Part shown: piece after piece, positions 8,552 through 20,181 of the stretch
Numbering within the stretch: the stretch's first letter is position 1
How the letters are laid out: every line of letters begins with the position of its first letter
DNA from: Polyangiaceae bacterium
Lineage (GTDB): Bacteria > Myxococcota_A > Polyangia > Polyangiales > Polyangiaceae
Direction of reading: 5' to 3'
Length of the DNA stretch: 53,758 nt
Assembly (NCBI GenBank): GCA_020846005.1
Contig: JADLEQ010000002.1
Location: 1 to 53,758 of the forward strand
Translations under genes and position numbers: made by a program
The notes under the pieces: model-generated
The model's input: only the letters and a program-made list of their open reading frames with translations
Told to the model about the DNA's origin: nothing
The model's database searches: none

Positions 8552-10120
8552 TCAACCCATGCGGCGCAGGATCCCCTCGGCGGCGACGTGGCTGAACGCC
8601 ATGATGGTCTCGGACGGATCGACCGAGACGGCGGTCGGGAAGACGCTCGGATCGCAGACGTACAACCCACGGACGGCGTGGACCTCGTGGCTCGAGTCCA
8701 CGACGCTGGTGCTCGGATCCCTGCCCATGCGGCACATCCCGGCGGGGTGCGGACACGCGAACGTCATCGAGCCCGTACGGAGGTCGACGGTGTCGAGCCG
8801 CGAGAGCTCCTTCAGCTCGGAGATCCGCGTACCGGCCGGGTCGGGCACGATGACCTCGCCAGCGCCAGCGTGCAACAGGACGGTCGCCTCCTTCTTCAGC
8901 GCGTCGCGGACGGTGAGCTCATCCGCGGCCCCGAGGGACCAGCGCCAGATCGGCTCGCCCTCGCCGTCGAGGCGCACCGAGCCGCTCCCGAGATCGTCGA
9001 TCCACGCGATCGCGCTCCCGATGCGCGGCGCGGCCTCCATGAGGCGGCGGTGCTCGGCGCCGAACCCGGGCAGGAGCGCGGCGAGCGTCGCGGGGGGGAG
9101 CTGGTTCGGGTGGAGGAGGTAGCCGCCCTCGACGTAGCGCCCGCGGTCGAACGTGTGCAGCCGGTACTTCATCGAGCCGACCGCCGCCGGGATCCCGCGC
9201 CAGAGCACGACCTCCCGGTCGAAGAGGCCGAAGAGCTGGGGGCAGGGGTTCATCTGGAGGTTCCGCCCGAGCTGGCCGGACGGGTTCGGCACGTTGGAAC
9301 GCAGCAGCAGCGGCGCGGTGGCGAACCCGCCCGCCGCGACGATGACCACCTTCGCGCGCACCTCGAGCCGGTGACCGTTCGGCCGTGTCGTCCGGCGGTC
9401 GAGGAAGCGCGCTGCGACACCCACGGCGCGCCCTCCCTCGATCAGCACGCGCTCCACGTCGCAGTCGGCGAAGAGCCGGGCGCCGCTCGCGAGCGCCGCG
9501 GGCAGGTGCGTGACGAGCTGGCTCTGCTTGCCGTCGTAGGCGCAGCCCTGCATGCAGTAGCCGGAGTCGATGCAGCGATCGTCGCGAGCCTGCACGACCG
9601 GCTCCCACTCGATGCCGGCCCTCTCCGCGCCCTCGACGAACAGCCGGTTCATCGCGTTGCGCCGCCGAGGGGGCGCGGGGTGGGCGTTCAGCGTCTGCTC
9701 GACGAGCTCGAACCAAGGCCGGAGGTGGTCCTCGGTGTGTCCCTCGACGCCGTGCTCGCGCTCCCACCGGTCGAGGCGATCCTTCGGCGCGCGCCAGGTG
9801 TCGGCCCAGTAGTGCACCGACGCGCCCCCGACGCAGCCCCCGTAGGTGAGCGCGCCCTGGCCGTTCTCGGTGGTGTGGAGCCCGCGCCCGCCGTCGATGC
9901 GCGCGAACATGTCGTCCTCGCGCTGGTCGAAGTCCCGGCGCCGAGGCAGGTAGAGGCCGCCACGCTCGAGCATCAGCACGGACTTTCCGGCCCGCGCGAG
10001 GTCGAGCCCGGCGACCGCCGCGCCGCACCCGCTCCCCACGATCACCACGTCCACCTCCTCGCGCATCGAGGCGAGGACTCGGTCCGCCTCGAGCACCCGG
10101 TCCATCACGGCGTCATCCAT
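8552..10120 (-). CDS. GMC family oxidoreductase (module 1)
   Basis: FAD-dependent alcohol or sugar oxidoreductase, 522 residues. The Rossmann FAD site is VDVVIVGSGCGAAVAGLDLA (about residues 24-43) with ERGG after it. A Cys-containing segment YCMQGCAYDGKQ is typical of bacterial GMC enzymes paired with a subunit-3-like protein. The C-terminal catalytic region has FACPHPAGMCRMG and DPSVFPTAVSVDPSETIMA. The ATG at 10120 is used: it overlaps the stop of the upstream small-subunit gene by eight bases (ATGGATGA), a sign of translational coupling. The longer frame to 10369 only shadows that gene. The partner has a Tat signal, so the complex may work outside the cytoplasm by co-export; this is inference. 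Substrate unknown. Confidence 0.92.
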   Translation of the reverse strand: MDDAVMDRVLEADRVLASMREEVDVVIVGSGCGAAVAGLDLARAGKSVLMLERGGLYLPRRRDFDQREDDMFARIDGGRGLHTTENGQGALTYGGCVGGASVHYWADTWRAPKDRLDRWEREHGVEGHTEDHLRPWFELVEQTLNAHPAPPRRRNAMNRLFVEGAERAGIEWEPVVQARDDRCIDSGYCMQGCAYDGKQSQLVTHLPAALASGARLFADCDVERVLIEGGRAVGVAARFLDRRTTRPNGHRLEVRAKVVIVAAGGFATAPLLLRSNVPNPSGQLGRNLQMNPCPQLFGLFDREVVLWRGIPAAVGSMKYRLHTFDRGRYVEGGYLLHPNQLPPATLAALLPGFGAEHRRLMEAAPRIGSAIAWIDDLGSGSVRLDGEGEPIWRWSLGAADELTVRDALKKEATVLLHAGAGEVIVPDPAGTRISELKELSRLDTVDLRTGSMTFACPHPAGMCRMGRDPSTSVVDSSHEVHAVRGLYVCDPSVFPTAVSVDPSETIMAFSHVAAEGILRRMG

Positions 10121-10724
10121 CGAGACGACCCTCGCGCGGCCGCGAGTCGGCCGGAGGCGCCACGCGCGGGACGTACGGCCCGTTGTACCGGATGGCCCCC
10201 CAGGTGCGATCATCCACGTAGTAGAAGAAGAGCGCCAAGAGGCGCAGGTTCGAGAACACCTGCCGCTCGAGCTCTCGCCCCTCCACGCCCATCCGCCGCA
10301 GATAGGCGTCCTGCTCCGGGCCGCCCAGTCGGGTGAAGCGCGTGGGCGCGGCGTGCAGCCAGCCGCCATGCTCGAGCAGGAAGATCGCGGCCTTTACGTC
10401 GGCGCGGAGCTTCGCGGTGTGGAACGACAGCTCCCGGTCGATCCGCTCGGCGACGCGCACGGCCGCAGGCCCGGGATGCGCCCCCCCCGGCTCCGGGCAG
10501 ACCCGCGCGCAGAAGGCGGCGAGCACGCCGAGCTCCTTCACGTCGAGCACGACAGGACGCGCCGCGGGGCAGAGGGAGGCATAGTGGGCCTCCCCTCCCC
10601 CGCGCGCGGCGAGCCACCCCCCGGCGGCGAGCGCGGCCCCTCCGATCGCGCCAACCGCGAGGAAGCGCCGCCGCGCGAGCGGATGCCGCGCGGCGACGGG
10701 GGGGCGAGGCGGAGCGCTCGACAC
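10113..10724 (-). CDS. Gluconate 2-dehydrogenase subunit 3-like protein with Tat signal
   Basis: A 203-residue small partner of the downstream GMC oxidoreductase. The N-terminus has a twin-arginine motif (RRRFLAVGA) followed by a hydrophobic stretch (IGGAALAAGGWLAA). The mature part resembles the gluconate 2-dehydrogenase subunit 3 family in its conserved pattern (LDVKELGVLAAFCARVCP, then a helical C-terminus with LALFFYYVDDRTWGAIRYNG). In known systems this subunit accompanies the FAD subunit across the membrane. A GTG at 10724 is the only start available downstream of an in-frame stop. Its stop overlaps the GMC start by eight bases. It lies 43 bp downstream of the secernin-like gene on the same strand. 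Confidence 0.85.
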   Translation of the reverse strand: MSSAPPRPPVAARHPLARRRFLAVGAIGGAALAAGGWLAARGGGEAHYASLCPAARPVVLDVKELGVLAAFCARVCPEPGGAHPGPAAVRVAERIDRELSFHTAKLRADVKAAIFLLEHGGWLHAAPTRFTRLGGPEQDAYLRRMGVEGRELERQVFSNLRLLALFFYYVDDRTWGAIRYNGPYVPRVAPPADSRPREGRLDG

Positions 10725-12158: not shown

Positions 12159-12998
12159 ATGAGCTCGGACGCGATCACCCTGACCACCGCCCTCCCCGCT
12201 CCGCCGGCGCGGGTCTACGCAGCGTGGACGGACGCGCGCGAGCACGGCGCGATGACGGGGAGCCCCGCCTCGGGGGACGCCCGCGTCGGCGGCGTGTTCC
12301 ATGCGTGGGACGGCTACATCACGGCCGAGACCCTGGTGGTGGTGCCCGGCAAGCACGTGGTCCAGCACTGGCGGACGACGGACTTCCCGCCCGACGCGCC
12401 CGCGTCGCTGCTCGCCGTCGCGTTCCTCGAGCAGGACGCCGGGACGCTGCTCTTCCTCTTGCACGTGGGCCTGCCGGCGGGCCAGATCGCGCGGTACGAG
12501 GCGGGCTGGAGGGAGTTCTACCTGGAGCCGATGCGGCGCTACTTCTCGGGATCCGGCGCGAGGACGGCGGCGAGGGCTCCCCGGAAGCAGCCTGCGTCCG
12601 CGAAGCAGCCCGCCTCCGCGAAGCTGCCTGCGTCCGCGAAGCAGCCCGCCTCCGCGAAGCAGCCCGCCTCCGCGAAGAGGCCTGCCTCCGCGAAGAGGCC
12701 TGCCTCCGCGAAGAGGCCTGCCTCCGCGAAGAGGCCTGCCTCCGCGAAGCAGCCTACCTCCACGAAGCAGCCCGCCTCCGCGAAGAGGCCTGCCTCCGCG
12801 AAGAGGCCTGCCTCCGCGAAGAGGCCTGCCTCCGCGAAGCAGCCTGCCTCCACGAAGCAGCCCGCCTCCGCGAGGAAGCCCGCCTCCGCGAACCAGCGCG
12901 CCTCCGCGAGGCGAACGCCAACCCGGACCGCCACGCCTGCCGCGCCGCGAAAGGCGAGCTCTCGCGGTGCCGTACGCCGCAGCGGGAGGCGCGGATGA
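12159..12998 (+). CDS. SRPBCC (AHSA1-like) protein with histone H1-like Lys/Pro/Ala/Ser repeat tail
   Basis: A 279-residue protein in two parts. Residues 1-130 form an SRPBCC/AHSA1-type domain (TALPAPPARVYAAWTDAREH, GYITAETLVVVPGKHVVQHW, GWREFYLEPMRRYF), a fold that binds small hydrophobic ligands or Hsp90 partners. Residues 143-250 are 18 near-perfect hexapeptides KQPASA/KRPASA, ending in an Arg-rich stretch. The tail is strongly basic with Pro/Ala/Ser, like the C-terminal arms of bacterial histone H1-like proteins, so DNA or RNA binding is plausible but unproven. The ATG at 12159 fits the domain. Its stop overlaps the next gene's start (ATGA), suggesting coupling. Because the repeat unit is 18 bp, all frames across it stay open, but only this frame is linked to a known domain. 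Confidence 0.85.
   Translation: MSSDAITLTTALPAPPARVYAAWTDAREHGAMTGSPASGDARVGGVFHAWDGYITAETLVVVPGKHVVQHWRTTDFPPDAPASLLAVAFLEQDAGTLLFLLHVGLPAGQIARYEAGWREFYLEPMRRYFSGSGARTAARAPRKQPASAKQPASAKLPASAKQPASAKQPASAKRPASAKRPASAKRPASAKRPASAKQPTSTKQPASAKRPASAKRPASAKRPASAKQPASTKQPASARKPASANQRASARRTPTRTATPAAPRKASSRGAVRRSGRRG
12585..12908 (+). repeat. 18 tandem copies of an 18-bp coding repeat
   Basis: Units of the form aagcagcccgcctccgcg and aagaggcctgcctccgcg run without interruption for 324 bp and encode (K[Q/R/L]PASA)18. A higher-order pattern is visible: a block of four KRPASA units, KQPTST and KQPASA is echoed by three KRPASA units, KQPAST and KQPASA. This points to growth by unequal exchange or slippage. 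Confidence 0.96.
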
Positions 12999-16581: not shown

Positions 16582-16609
16582 TTGCGCGCCCTGGAGATAG
16601 TGGTAATAC
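16582..16609 (+). promoter_or_regulatory. Putative promoter of the GntR-GMC operon
   Basis: A TTGCGC hexamer (16582-16587) and a TAATAC hexamer (16604-16609) are separated by 16 bp and lie 33 bp before the regulator ATG. The -10 box is contained in the first GntR operator, so bound regulator would block RNA polymerase. Promoter rules in myxobacteria are loose, so this is a prediction. Confidence 0.5.
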
Positions 16610-16612
16610 CAC
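16600..16612 (+). promoter_or_regulatory. GntR/FadR-type operator, copy 1
   Basis: gtggtaataccac is a perfect inverted repeat (arms GTGGTA and TACCAC around one base). It contains the TGGT-N3-ACCA core known for the FadR subfamily of GntR regulators. The gene for such a regulator starts 30 bp further on, so autoregulation is the simple reading. Confidence 0.75.
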
Positions 16613-16620
16613 TTCAGGAT

Positions 16621-16633
16621 GTGGTCCTACCAC
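16621..16633 (+). promoter_or_regulatory. GntR/FadR-type operator, copy 2
   Basis: gtggtcctaccac is a second inverted repeat with arms GTGGT and ACCAC. It starts 21 bp after copy 1, two turns of DNA, so two dimers could bind on the same face. It ends eight bases before the regulator's ATG and overlaps the likely ribosome-binding region. Confidence 0.75.
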
Positions 16634-16641
16634 TGAGCCCC

Positions 16642-17457
16642 ATGGAGAATCACGCGAAAGGCAGGGCCGTCGAGGCCGTAGCCCGGCAGGTGCGGGCGTC
16701 GATCCTGCGCGGCGACCTCCCGCCGGGGAGCGCGCTCCCGGGAGAGCGCTCGCTCTCCGAGGACCTGGGGGTCAGCCGCCTCACCCTCCGGTCGGCGCTC
16801 GGCCGGCTCGAGTCGGAGGGGCTCGTGCAGCCGGTCCAGGGGTCCGGCACGCGCGTGCTCGACTTCCGCGCGTCGGGCGGCATCGATCTGCTCGGCCACC
16901 TCGCCGAGGTCGAGCTGGAGGGCGGCGTCATCCCCGTCGGGCTCCTCGCCGACCTCCTCGAGTTCCGCCGCATGGTCGCGGTCGAGCTGCTCGGGCTGGT
17001 CGCCGAGCGCGCCACCGCGGCCGAGCTCGACGCGCTGTCCGGCACGCTGCGGCGGCTCGCGCGGGCCGTGGGCGAGCCGGAGCGCTTCATGCGGCTCGAC
17101 CTCGAGCTCGCGCGCCAGCTCGTCCACGCGGGGAGGAACCTCGCGCTGGAGCTGCTCTTCAACACGGGGGTCCGGATCTTGTCCCAGCACCCCGCGCTCG
17201 ACGTCGCGTTCGGCGCCAACTCGGCTCACGCGGTCACGGTGTACGCGCGCCTGCTCGACCTCGTGCGCTCGCGCGACGCGAAGCGCGTCCGGCGCGTGTC
17301 GGCGAGGTTCCTGTCGGCGCTCGATCGCCGCACCCTCGAGCGCGTCGCCGCGCTCGCGCGCTCGGTCGCCACCGCCGCGCCAGGCGCGGCCGAAGCAGTC
17401 CCCGGCGCCCTCGGCGCCCCCCCACCCGCCACGAGAGGATCGGAGTACCCATGCTGA
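16642..17457 (+). CDS. GntR family transcriptional regulator, FadR/FCD subfamily
   Basis: A 271-residue DNA-binding regulator. The winged helix-turn-helix is at about residues 8-75 (AVEAVARQVRASILRGDLPP, LPGERSLSEDLGVSRLTLRS, LGRLESEGLVQPVQGSGTRV). The rest is an all-helical FCD ligand domain (about 85-235) with LLEFRRMVAVELLGLVAERA. Family members sense small organic acids, fatty acids or sugars and repress nearby genes. The ATG at 16642 starts just before the HTH; the frame further upstream is a shadow. Two 13-bp operators lie directly upstream. The stop overlaps the next start by seven bases, so the regulator is co-expressed with the GMC genes it probably controls. Confidence 0.9.
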   Translation: MENHAKGRAVEAVARQVRASILRGDLPPGSALPGERSLSEDLGVSRLTLRSALGRLESEGLVQPVQGSGTRVLDFRASGGIDLLGHLAEVELEGGVIPVGLLADLLEFRRMVAVELLGLVAERATAAELDALSGTLRRLARAVGEPERFMRLDLELARQLVHAGRNLALELLFNTGVRILSQHPALDVAFGANSAHAVTVYARLLDLVRSRDAKRVRRVSARFLSALDRRTLERVAALARSVATAAPGAAEAVPGALGAPPPATRGSEYPC

Positions 17458-17930
17458 CGTTCGAGAGGCGCGCCGCGGCGACGGTGCTGGAGGCGTTCGC
17501 CCCGTTCCAGGAGCCGGCGCTCGCCGTGCGTCCCGGAGAGGTGGACTGGTCACGCGCGTTCGAGTCGATGGCGCGCGCGAGCTCGCCGCTCGCGGCGTTC
17601 GGGCTGCGCGCGGCGCTCTGGATCGCGTTGGCGTCGCCGCTGCTGGTGTTCGGCTCGCTGCGCTCGTTCCGCTCGCTCGAGCCCGCGCGCCGGAGCGAGG
17701 TGATCGAGCGGCTGCTGGTCCACCGCTTCTACATCGTGCGCGAGCTGGCGCTCTACCTGAAGCTCACGGCGTGCATGGCGATCTTCTCCTCGCCGGCGGT
17801 TCGCGCGCGCTCCAACTACGATCGTCGGCCCGAGCTCGCGGCGCGGCCGAAGAGCGATCCGCCCGAGAGCGGCTCCCCCGAGCCCGATCGCCGGCGGCTG
17901 CCCGTCGCGGCGGCGGGGGGGGTGCTGTGA
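17451..17930 (+). CDS. Small GMC-oxidoreductase partner protein (subunit-3-like)
   Basis: A 159-residue protein of unknown function encoded between the GntR regulator and the GMC enzyme. It overlaps the regulator stop by seven bases and its own stop overlaps the GMC start by one base (TGATG). The N-terminus LTFERRAAATVLEAFAP and the helical core with VHRFYIVRELALYLKLTACM resemble small proteins, or N-terminal domains, that accompany GMC oxidoreductases. A hydrophobic segment (LRAALWIALASPLLVFGSL) could be membrane-associated. Unlike the partner at 10113-10724 it has no Tat motif. The Arg/Pro-rich C-terminus looks disordered. The partner role is inferred from gene order and weak similarity. 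Confidence 0.72.
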   Translation: MLTFERRAAATVLEAFAPFQEPALAVRPGEVDWSRAFESMARASSPLAAFGLRAALWIALASPLLVFGSLRSFRSLEPARRSEVIERLLVHRFYIVRELALYLKLTACMAIFSSPAVRARSNYDRRPELAARPKSDPPESGSPEPDRRRLPVAAAGGVL

Positions 17931-19426
17931 TGAGCCACTTCCTGTTCGAGGACGAGGCGGAGCACGTCATCGTGGGGACGGGCGCCGGCGGCGCGACGGC
18001 GGCGCGCGTGCTGAGTGACGCGGGCCGCTCGCTCGTCCTGCTCGAGGAGGGGCCCAACCTCCGGCCCGACCAGCGCCCGACGGATCTGCTCACCGGCATG
18101 GCGCAGGCCGTCCGCGACATGGGCTCGCAGACGACGACGGGCGCCACGCCCATCCCGCTGCTGCAGGGTCGGCTCGTCGGCGGGAGCACGGCGATCAACT
18201 CGGGCATCATCTGGCGGCTGCCCGAGGACGTGATCGATCACTGGTCGCGGGAGCACGGGCTCGGCGACCTGGTCGAGCGCGCGGCGCTCGAGCGGATCTA
18301 CGAGGTCATCGAGCGCGAGCTCGAGGTCGCGGAGACCGGAGAGGACGTGCTCGGCGGCAACGGCCACCTGATGGCCCGCGCGTGCGAGAAGCTCGGCCTC
18401 CCCGGCAAGCCCATCACGCGCAACGCCCGCCGCTGCCAAGGGCGCGCGCACTGCTTGCAGGGCTGCCCGAGCGAGGCGCGGCAGAGCATGGATGTCTCCT
18501 ACATCCCGATGGCCGTGGCGCGCGGCGCGCGCCTGCACGCGCTCTCCCGCGTCGAGCGGGTGCTGCTCGAGGGCGGGCGCGCCGTGGGCGTCGAGGGAGA
18601 CGTGCTGGACGCCGACACCCGCCGCCCCCGCGGGCGGTTCCGCGTCCGGGCGACGCGGGGCGTCATCGTCGCGGGTGGGGCGGTCCACACGCCGGCGGTC
18701 CTGCTCCGCTCCGGGCTCCGCGGGCTGGTGGGTCACCGCTTCCAGGCGCACCCGGGCGCGGCCGTCTCCGCGCGGTTCCCGGAGCCGGTCGGCATGGGGA
18801 CGGGCGCGACGCAGGGCTACGAGGTGCCGATGCGCACCGACGGCTTCAAGATCGAGTCGCTGTCGCTCCCGCCCGAAATGCTCGCGACGCGCATCCCCGG
18901 CGCGGGGAAGGCGTGGCAGGAGCGCCTGTCGGCGCTCGACTATTACGGCCAGTGGGCGGTCCAGGTCCGGATGAAGGCGCACGGCCGGGTCACGCTGGGG
19001 TGGGGCGGTGGCCCCATCGTCCGCTACGAGCCGCTCGACGACGACGTGGCTCGCGCGCAGAAGGCGATCGGGATAATCTGCCGCATGATGCTGGCCGTGG
19101 GCGCGACCGAGGTGCATCCCGGCATCGGCCACGTGCCGGAGACGCTCCGCACGATCGCCGACGTCGAGGCGTTCGAGCGGACGCGCCTCCGCCGCTCCGA
19201 CATCCACTTCATGGCGTCGCACCTCTTCGGGACGGCGTGCGCGGGGAGCGATCCCACGCGGAGCGTCGTGGGCCCGGATCTGCAGCACCACCAGGTGCGG
19301 GACCTGCACGTGATGGACGCGAGCGTGTTCCCTACGAACCTCGGCGTGAACCCGCAGCACTCGATCATGGCGGTCGTGTACCGCGCCGCAGAGCGCCTCG
19401 CGCAGGCAGAGCGGCGCGCGGCATGA
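17930..19426 (+). CDS. GMC family oxidoreductase (module 2)
   Basis: A 498-residue FAD enzyme. The dinucleotide site is HVIVGTGAGGATAARVLSD (about residues 12-30), followed by LLEEGPNLRPDQ. The GMC signature region GRLVGGSTAINSGIIWRLP and a Cys segment (HCLQGCPSEARQSMDVSYIP) are clear. The C-terminal catalytic region has HFMASHLFGTACAG and DASVFPTNLGVNPQHSIMAV, with the conserved His-Asn type pair. No export signal is seen. Starts at ATG 17930 within TGATG; the stop overlaps the next gene's start as ATGA. Related enzymes oxidise alcohols, sterols or sugars. The GntR/FCD regulator suggests induction by the substrate or a product. Confidence 0.92.
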   Translation: MSHFLFEDEAEHVIVGTGAGGATAARVLSDAGRSLVLLEEGPNLRPDQRPTDLLTGMAQAVRDMGSQTTTGATPIPLLQGRLVGGSTAINSGIIWRLPEDVIDHWSREHGLGDLVERAALERIYEVIERELEVAETGEDVLGGNGHLMARACEKLGLPGKPITRNARRCQGRAHCLQGCPSEARQSMDVSYIPMAVARGARLHALSRVERVLLEGGRAVGVEGDVLDADTRRPRGRFRVRATRGVIVAGGAVHTPAVLLRSGLRGLVGHRFQAHPGAAVSARFPEPVGMGTGATQGYEVPMRTDGFKIESLSLPPEMLATRIPGAGKAWQERLSALDYYGQWAVQVRMKAHGRVTLGWGGGPIVRYEPLDDDVARAQKAIGIICRMMLAVGATEVHPGIGHVPETLRTIADVEAFERTRLRRSDIHFMASHLFGTACAGSDPTRSVVGPDLQHHQVRDLHVMDASVFPTNLGVNPQHSIMAVVYRAAERLAQAERRAA

Positions 19427-20181
19427 GCGCAGCGCGCGCGCGCCGCCTCCGAGCCCCGCGCGCGCTGCGCGGGGTGGGAGCGGCGCGCGGGCGCCGAGCG
19501 GGCGGGCCGTCGGCGCGGTGGGCGCTCGTGGTGGCCGCGCTCTCGACAGGCGCGTGCGGCGGAGGCGACGGCGACGATCTGTACGGGGGCGGCGCGAGCG
19601 GGAGCGCGGGAGCGAGCGGGAGCGCGGGAGCGAGCGGGAGCGCGGGGGCGAGGGGGAGCGGCGGCGCCAGCGGGAGCGGCGGCGCGAGCGGCAGCGCGAG
19701 CGGGGGCGCGAGCGGCAGCGCGGGAGCGGGCGGCAGCGGGGGCGGCGGCGCGGGCGGCGGCGCGAGCGGGAGCGCGGGGGCGGGCGGGAGCGGGGGGTGT
19801 GCGCAGCCCTCGACGTTCTACGCCGACGCGGACGGTGACGGGCACGGGGATCCGGGATCACCCGTGCAGGCGTGCGAGCAGCCGAGCGGCGCGGTCGCCA
19901 GCGCGGACGACTGCTTCGACGGCAACCCGCAGGCGAAGCCGGGGCAGGCCAGCTTCTTCGCCACGGATCGGGGAGATGGCAGCTTCGACTACGACTGCGA
20001 CGGCGACGGCGCGGCCGAGTTCCCGACGGTCGGCACCTGCGGGGTCGCGATCTGCACGCTGACGGCCGGGTGGCGACAGTCCGTCCCGGCGTGCGGCGCG
20101 AGCGGCGAGTGGATCATCGGGTGCACCGGCGTCGGGATCTGCAATCCCACGACCGATCCCCGAGTCTCGAAGTGCCACTGA
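19423..20181 (+). CDS. Lipoprotein with MopE-like metal-binding motif, coupled to the GMC operon
   Basis: A 252-residue predicted lipoprotein. Its Arg-rich N-terminus precedes a signal peptide ending in LSTGACGGG. A Gly/Ser/Ala linker of about 75 residues (repeats of SGSAGA) follows. The mature domain has Asp-rich MopE-like spacing (FYADADGDGHGDPG, ADDCFDGNPQAKPG) that may bind calcium or copper, then a Cys-rich C-terminus (GTCGVAICTLTAGWRQ, NPTTDPRVSKCH). The ATG at 19423 overlaps the GMC stop as ATGA, so translation is coupled. Alternative starts nearer the signal peptide are possible. Why a surface lipoprotein is tied to a GMC enzyme is unclear. Confidence 0.78.
   Translation: MSAARARRLRAPRALRGVGAARGRRAGGPSARWALVVAALSTGACGGGDGDDLYGGGASGSAGASGSAGASGSAGARGSGGASGSGGASGSASGGASGSAGAGGSGGGGAGGGASGSAGAGGSGGCAQPSTFYADADGDGHGDPGSPVQACEQPSGAVASADDCFDGNPQAKPGQASFFATDRGDGSFDYDCDGDGAAEFPTVGTCGVAICTLTAGWRQSVPACGASGEWIIGCTGVGICNPTTDPRVSKCH

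Follow-up and report, generated by a model that had tools for sequence, protein, structure and literature searches.

A conserved FadR-type operator pair upstream of a predicted 3Fe-4S GMC dehydrogenase operon in a Polyangiaceae bacterium

Two closely spaced palindromes lie just upstream of a FadR-like regulator gene in the DNA analysed here, a stretch of 53,758 nucleotides from a Polyangiaceae bacterium (the window). Judged from comparative sequence data, this pair is genuine and conserved, is of FadR operator type and is most likely autoregulatory. The regulator is probably a repressor of its own operon, which would occlude the promoter of a predicted 3Fe-4S FAD dehydrogenase of the GMC family. 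The observation made in the initial annotation of this region was therefore real and was confirmed in part, and its interpretation was partly supported. The type of switch is already known, and the 3Fe-4S dehydrogenase unit attached to it is uncharacterised. The literature was searched for the cassette and nothing relevant was found; the operon and its substrate were undescribed there.

The operator pair and its promoter

Operator 1 (GTGGTAATACCAC, 16600-16612) and operator 2 (GTGGTCCTACCAC, 16621-16633) both have the form GTGGT-N3-ACCAC, with no strand assigned to either. The two 13-bp inverted repeats were thus present as annotated, with the claimed distance of 21 bp from start to start and eight bases between the end of operator 2 and the ATG of the regulator gene at 16642. 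The core of operator 1 is embedded in a 15-bp dyad, AGTGGTAATACCACT, at 16599-16613. On the other side, the operators are preceded by a divergent Uma2-family gene (PF05685, 15614-16582, minus strand), whose tail is a REEEQRLREEEQ repeat.

A -35-like TTGCGC (16582-16587, plus strand) and a putative -10 hexamer TAATAC (16604-16609, plus strand), which matches the consensus weakly, were read directly from the sequence and are separated by 16 nt. The first site had been placed on a predicted -10 box, and this held insofar as TAATAC lies within operator 1, but a sigma-70 consensus scan of the region called no match, and the TTGCGC/TAATAC promoter is weak by consensus. Still, 18 of 24 modules had a TTG[CA][GAC] at most 40 bp before site 1, compared with 8% of background 40-bp windows. 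Operator 2 would be located just 3' of the transcription start. With site 1 on the -10 box and site 2 on the first transcribed bases, the arrangement suggests that the promoter is occluded and that a second block lies immediately after it.

GTGGTN3ACCAC is rare in this 5.7-Mb genome, which contains three exact copies of it, whereas the reversed control pattern was counted 14 times. Two of the copies are the operator pair, and the third (C49) is intragenic. The shorter core TGGTN3ACCA occurred at 17 places in the whole genome compared with 40 for its reversed control, and of the 13 further places that were examined 10 were intragenic. A genome-wide search had been proposed as a way to define the regulon, and this core search gave no evidence of a wider one. 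Within the window alone, the pattern was found twice at one mismatch and 14 of 100 shuffles also reached two, which is not significant. What makes the pair significant is therefore its placement in tandem, its count in the whole genome and its conservation.

Conservation of the unit and of operator recognition

Homologs of the window regulator with 42-55% identity were obtained from other families of the same order. In the orthologous units, 26 including that of the window, the regulator gene precedes those of a small protein and of a GMC enzyme; the GMC enzymes are 55-64% identical. One unit (L142), whose contig stops at the regulator and has no upstream sequence, was excluded from the site counts, which left 25. 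When TGG[TC]N3[AG]CCA within 150 bp upstream was taken as a site, at least one operator was found in 24 of the 25 operons with readable upstream DNA and two operators in 19 of them, the exception being L133 with a degraded site only. The background rate of this pattern was 0.008 per 160 bp; the formal probability of such conservation is tiny but overstated, since the counts are non-independent and many of the relatives are close kin.

The spacing between the two sites was 15 bp in one unit, 16 in eight, 17 in four, 18 in three, 21 in two and 22 in one, with a mode of 16 bp. The second case of 21 bp was L132, which has the closest regulator (54%). A distance of exactly 21 bp is thus unsupported as a design feature. 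Because the spacing is variable, the two sites need not keep a constant helical phase, and cooperative binding is uncertain. Double sites with short spacing beside the regulator gene were previously reported in the FadR subfamily and were predicted to form one complex site (Suvorova et al., 2015, PMC4494728). Like these, the window has two closely spaced sites adjoining the regulator gene, whereas the published cases were described for divergent operons and the window pair serves a single co-directional operon.

In two cases (L146 and L163), no neighbouring regulator was detected beside the small-protein/GMC pair, yet the DNA upstream of the pair has AACTGGTATGACCACTT in the former and, in the latter, TTTTGGTAATACCAGTT together with a second imperfect site. 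The GMC enzyme of L146 is the closest found, being 68% identical to that of the window. Since operators are kept at these regulator-less pairs, the enzyme pair is the likely target, on which the regulator would act in trans. Some other small-protein/GMC pairs follow a histidine kinase/response-regulator hybrid gene and not a FadR-like regulator (L158, 2905-4320; L161, 2909-4282). At E 1e-45, the regulator clade of the window was not found in the other genomes searched of its own family, although 28 further genomes of the order have it, a patchy distribution that may reflect loss or transfer.

The conserved unit comprises three genes, namely the regulator, the small protein and the GMC enzyme. 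In the window, the regulator and small-protein genes overlap by 7 nt, the small-protein and GMC genes by 1 nt, and the GMC gene and a lipoprotein-like ORF by 4 nt. Four successive genes overlapping by one to seven bases had been claimed, but a gap of 37 nt follows the third overlap. The genes downstream of the GMC gene (lipoprotein-like, membrane-protein and phosphoesterase) were not conserved with the unit in the relatives and may simply be read through. The description as a complete, self-contained five-gene operon was therefore overstated, since conservation extends to three genes and the regulator is not linked in some relatives. The lipoprotein-like ORF (19423-20181), which is small and contains GASGSAG repeats, overlaps the GMC stop and is not conserved with the cassette. 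Elsewhere in the window, 12159-12998 is a strongly repetitive coding stretch of KPASAK type with open frames in several phases.

A sister clade of regulators (35-41% identical), from the window's own family, heads the three-gene unit in 22 genomes. A single site, mostly TGGTTSAACCA and almost always similar to AASTGGTTSAACCASTT, was found upstream of 20 of these 22 regulators, at a distance of 65-119 bp. In four members (L044, L041, L047 and L051), a PF01212 beta-eliminating lyase gene lies divergent from the regulator, and the two may share the single operator. Thr44 of FadR contacts DNA bases (PMC4494728), and the residue at this position is Asn in the sister clade and Ser in the window clade. 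Regulators of the Asn type had the operator centre TTSAA in 24 of 26 sites, while those of the Ser type had 15 different centres among 45 sites and TTSAA only once. As a hypothesis, Asn at the Thr44 position may fix the operator centre and Ser may relax it; the change between Asn and Ser coincides with one deep branch, however, and could represent a single evolutionary event. One group of relatives (L111, L140, L141 and L143) has Ala at the FadR Thr46 position together with a single CNG-centred site (TGGTCNGACCA), possibly another change of recognition.

The regulator and the enzyme

The regulator (271 aa, 16642-17457, plus strand) was assigned to the GntR/FCD family by Pfam, in agreement with the initial annotation, with 70 bits for PF00392 (GntR) and 46 bits for PF07729 (FCD). 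In its N-terminal GntR winged helix, the equivalents of R35, R45 and R49 of FadR are kept in all members of the GMC-linked modules, and the equivalent of Gly66 is likewise kept. The effector domain at the C-terminus, about 150 residues long, is all-helical in the predicted model (helices 83-245). The family profile matched E. coli FadR over both domains with E 9e-33 and 117 bits, compared with 105 bits for NanR. The model had a pLDDT of 90.7, and its ten best VIA matches were all FadR (Z 18.6-20.4), followed by DhdR at 16.4. FadR proper thus ranked above DhdR, NanR, PdhR and LldR in both profile score and fold, and VanR was also less near in sequence and fold. According to these profile and model comparisons, the regulator is closer to the acyl-CoA-responsive FadR proper than to its carboxylate-sensing relatives.

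The regulator resembles FadR of E. coli and Vibrio in a two-domain fold over the full length with a linker after the wing, and the two systems share the TGGT-N3-ACCA core and the DNA-contact arginines. However, the identity in structural alignments is about 23-27%, and the window protein has Ser, Leu and Gln at Thr44, Thr46 and His65 of FadR. The targets of FadR are dispersed fad/fab genes, whereas the window regulator is linked to a three-gene dehydrogenase operon. Pfam FadR_C did not match the regulator and FCD matched instead, and the scores with two curated FadR models (62.5 bits with a cut-off of 249, and 68 bits with a cut-off of 189) were below the cut-offs. Because these cut-offs were failed, we call the regulator FadR-like and regard a lipid or acyl-CoA ligand as tentative. 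The subfamily consensus is TKGT-N3-ACMA (PMC4494728), and such an operator adjoins the regulator's own gene in the window and its orthologs. That the palindromes are FadR-type operators of the cognate regulator is supported by this known consensus, the conservation in orthologs and the matched change in a DNA-contact residue.

The GMC oxidoreductase (498 aa, 17930-19426, plus strand) matched the Pfam GMC N and C domains and contains C169-x5-C175-x3-C179, a motif that was invariant in 24 of 24 aligned GMC enzymes. In the FAD-glucose dehydrogenase of Burkholderia cepacia, C-x5-C-x3-C holds a 3Fe-4S cluster (PMC6719666), and C169, C175 and C179 align with its ligands C212, C218 and C222. The window enzyme is therefore predicted to be a 3Fe-4S FAD dehydrogenase that hands electrons on; it is grouped with the 3Fe-4S GMC dehydrogenases by the resemblance of its catalytic subunit only. 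A second GMC enzyme, at 8588-10724 on the minus strand, also has the motif (CIDSGYCMQGC) and a Gluconate_2-dh3 gene upstream; this more orthodox gamma-alpha pair lies 6 kb from the operator-linked GMC gene.

The small protein (159 aa, 17451-17930, plus strand) is paired with the GMC enzyme in the relatives. Pfam gave no match of its own for it, Gluconate_2-dh3 included. In a profile comparison, the small protein matched a 17-sequence profile of N-terminal domains that other GMC enzymes carry in fused form (96.5%, E 8e-10), and 9 of these 17 domains matched Gluconate_2-dh3 (PF13618); a single fused domain compared with the small protein gave no convincing match (16.8%). No twin-arginine signal was seen by eye. 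The model of the small protein had no match among solved structures (best Foldseek E 1.3, VIA Z 3.6), which is not proof of a new fold. The small protein is probably related to the gamma subunit, remotely and without a Tat signal. Together with the catalytic subunit, these results support the proposed switch for an oxidation step and narrow that step down to a GMC dehydrogenase of 3Fe-4S type that has a small, gamma-like partner. The small protein may resemble the N-terminal domain of long-chain fatty alcohol oxidase; identification of the enzyme itself as such an oxidase was set aside, as the cysteine motif points to dehydrogenases. The gamma-alpha complex of the B. cepacia enzyme is similar in having a C-x5-C-x3-C GMC subunit with a small partner (PMC6719666), but the window small protein lacks the Tat signal and the Pfam signature, and the conserved unit has no cytochrome c subunit. 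No cytochrome match was found among the downstream window proteins scanned, and no cytochrome gene was conserved with the unit.

The ligand and the substrate could be read in two ways. It is quite possible that the regulator, as an FCD-type protein, senses a small carboxylate or a sugar acid in the manner of DhdR, LldR and NanR, and that the substrate of the enzyme is a hydroxy acid or sugar related to it; operators and repression would be the same, and only ligand and substrate would differ. The FCD assignment by Pfam, the use of sugars and sugar acids by 3Fe-4S GMC dehydrogenases with known substrate, and the response of the majority of FadR-subfamily regulators to such compounds are consistent with this, while the higher rank of FadR proper and the replacement of the usual FCD metal-binding histidines, judged by eye from the alignment, argue against it. 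A fatty acyl-CoA or similar lipid as ligand, with a lipid-related alcohol as substrate, is a tentative assignment to which the FadR-like profile and fold point. Fatty-acid genes were not consistently linked to the cassette in the relatives.

Proposed mechanism and its meaning

In the explanation that we prefer, dimers of the FadR-like regulator would bind both palindromes just upstream of its own gene, presumably one dimer per site. The dimer at site 1 would cover the -10 box and that at site 2 the transcript start, so that the bound regulator would repress its own gene together with those of the small gamma-like protein and the predicted 3Fe-4S, FAD-containing GMC dehydrogenase, until the helical C-terminal domain takes up a ligand and the DNA is freed. 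We inferred repression from the position of the sites. FadR is an activator at fabA and fabB. It works in both modes, activation and repression (PMC4537474), but an activating role of the bound regulator is improbable here, since site 1 on the putative -10 box and site 2 3' of the start are positions typical of repression. That the palindromes are hairpins of a leader RNA is very improbable: the arms are able to pair and the flanking dyad bases vary in a paired way between orthologs, but site 1 overlaps the putative promoter and would not be transcribed whole, site number and spacer length are variable, and the TGGT/ACCA core, a known FadR-subfamily consensus, hardly changes although a hairpin would tolerate change.

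Extending the repressor model, one rather unlikely version would be an acyl-CoA-gated system of Myxococcota, undescribed so far, in which a 3Fe-4S FAD enzyme of two subunits, located in the cytoplasm, is controlled by a FadR-like sensor whose tandem operators drift. The gamma-like partner of the enzyme would have lost export, and the enzyme would oxidise lipid-derived alcohols and pass the electrons on to an acceptor.

What began as a guess from a single window has become a conserved regulon of small size, together with a rule of protein-DNA recognition that can be tested. For the uncharacterised dehydrogenase family, which occurs across Myxococcota, the ligand of the sensor would offer a genetic handle on the substrate.
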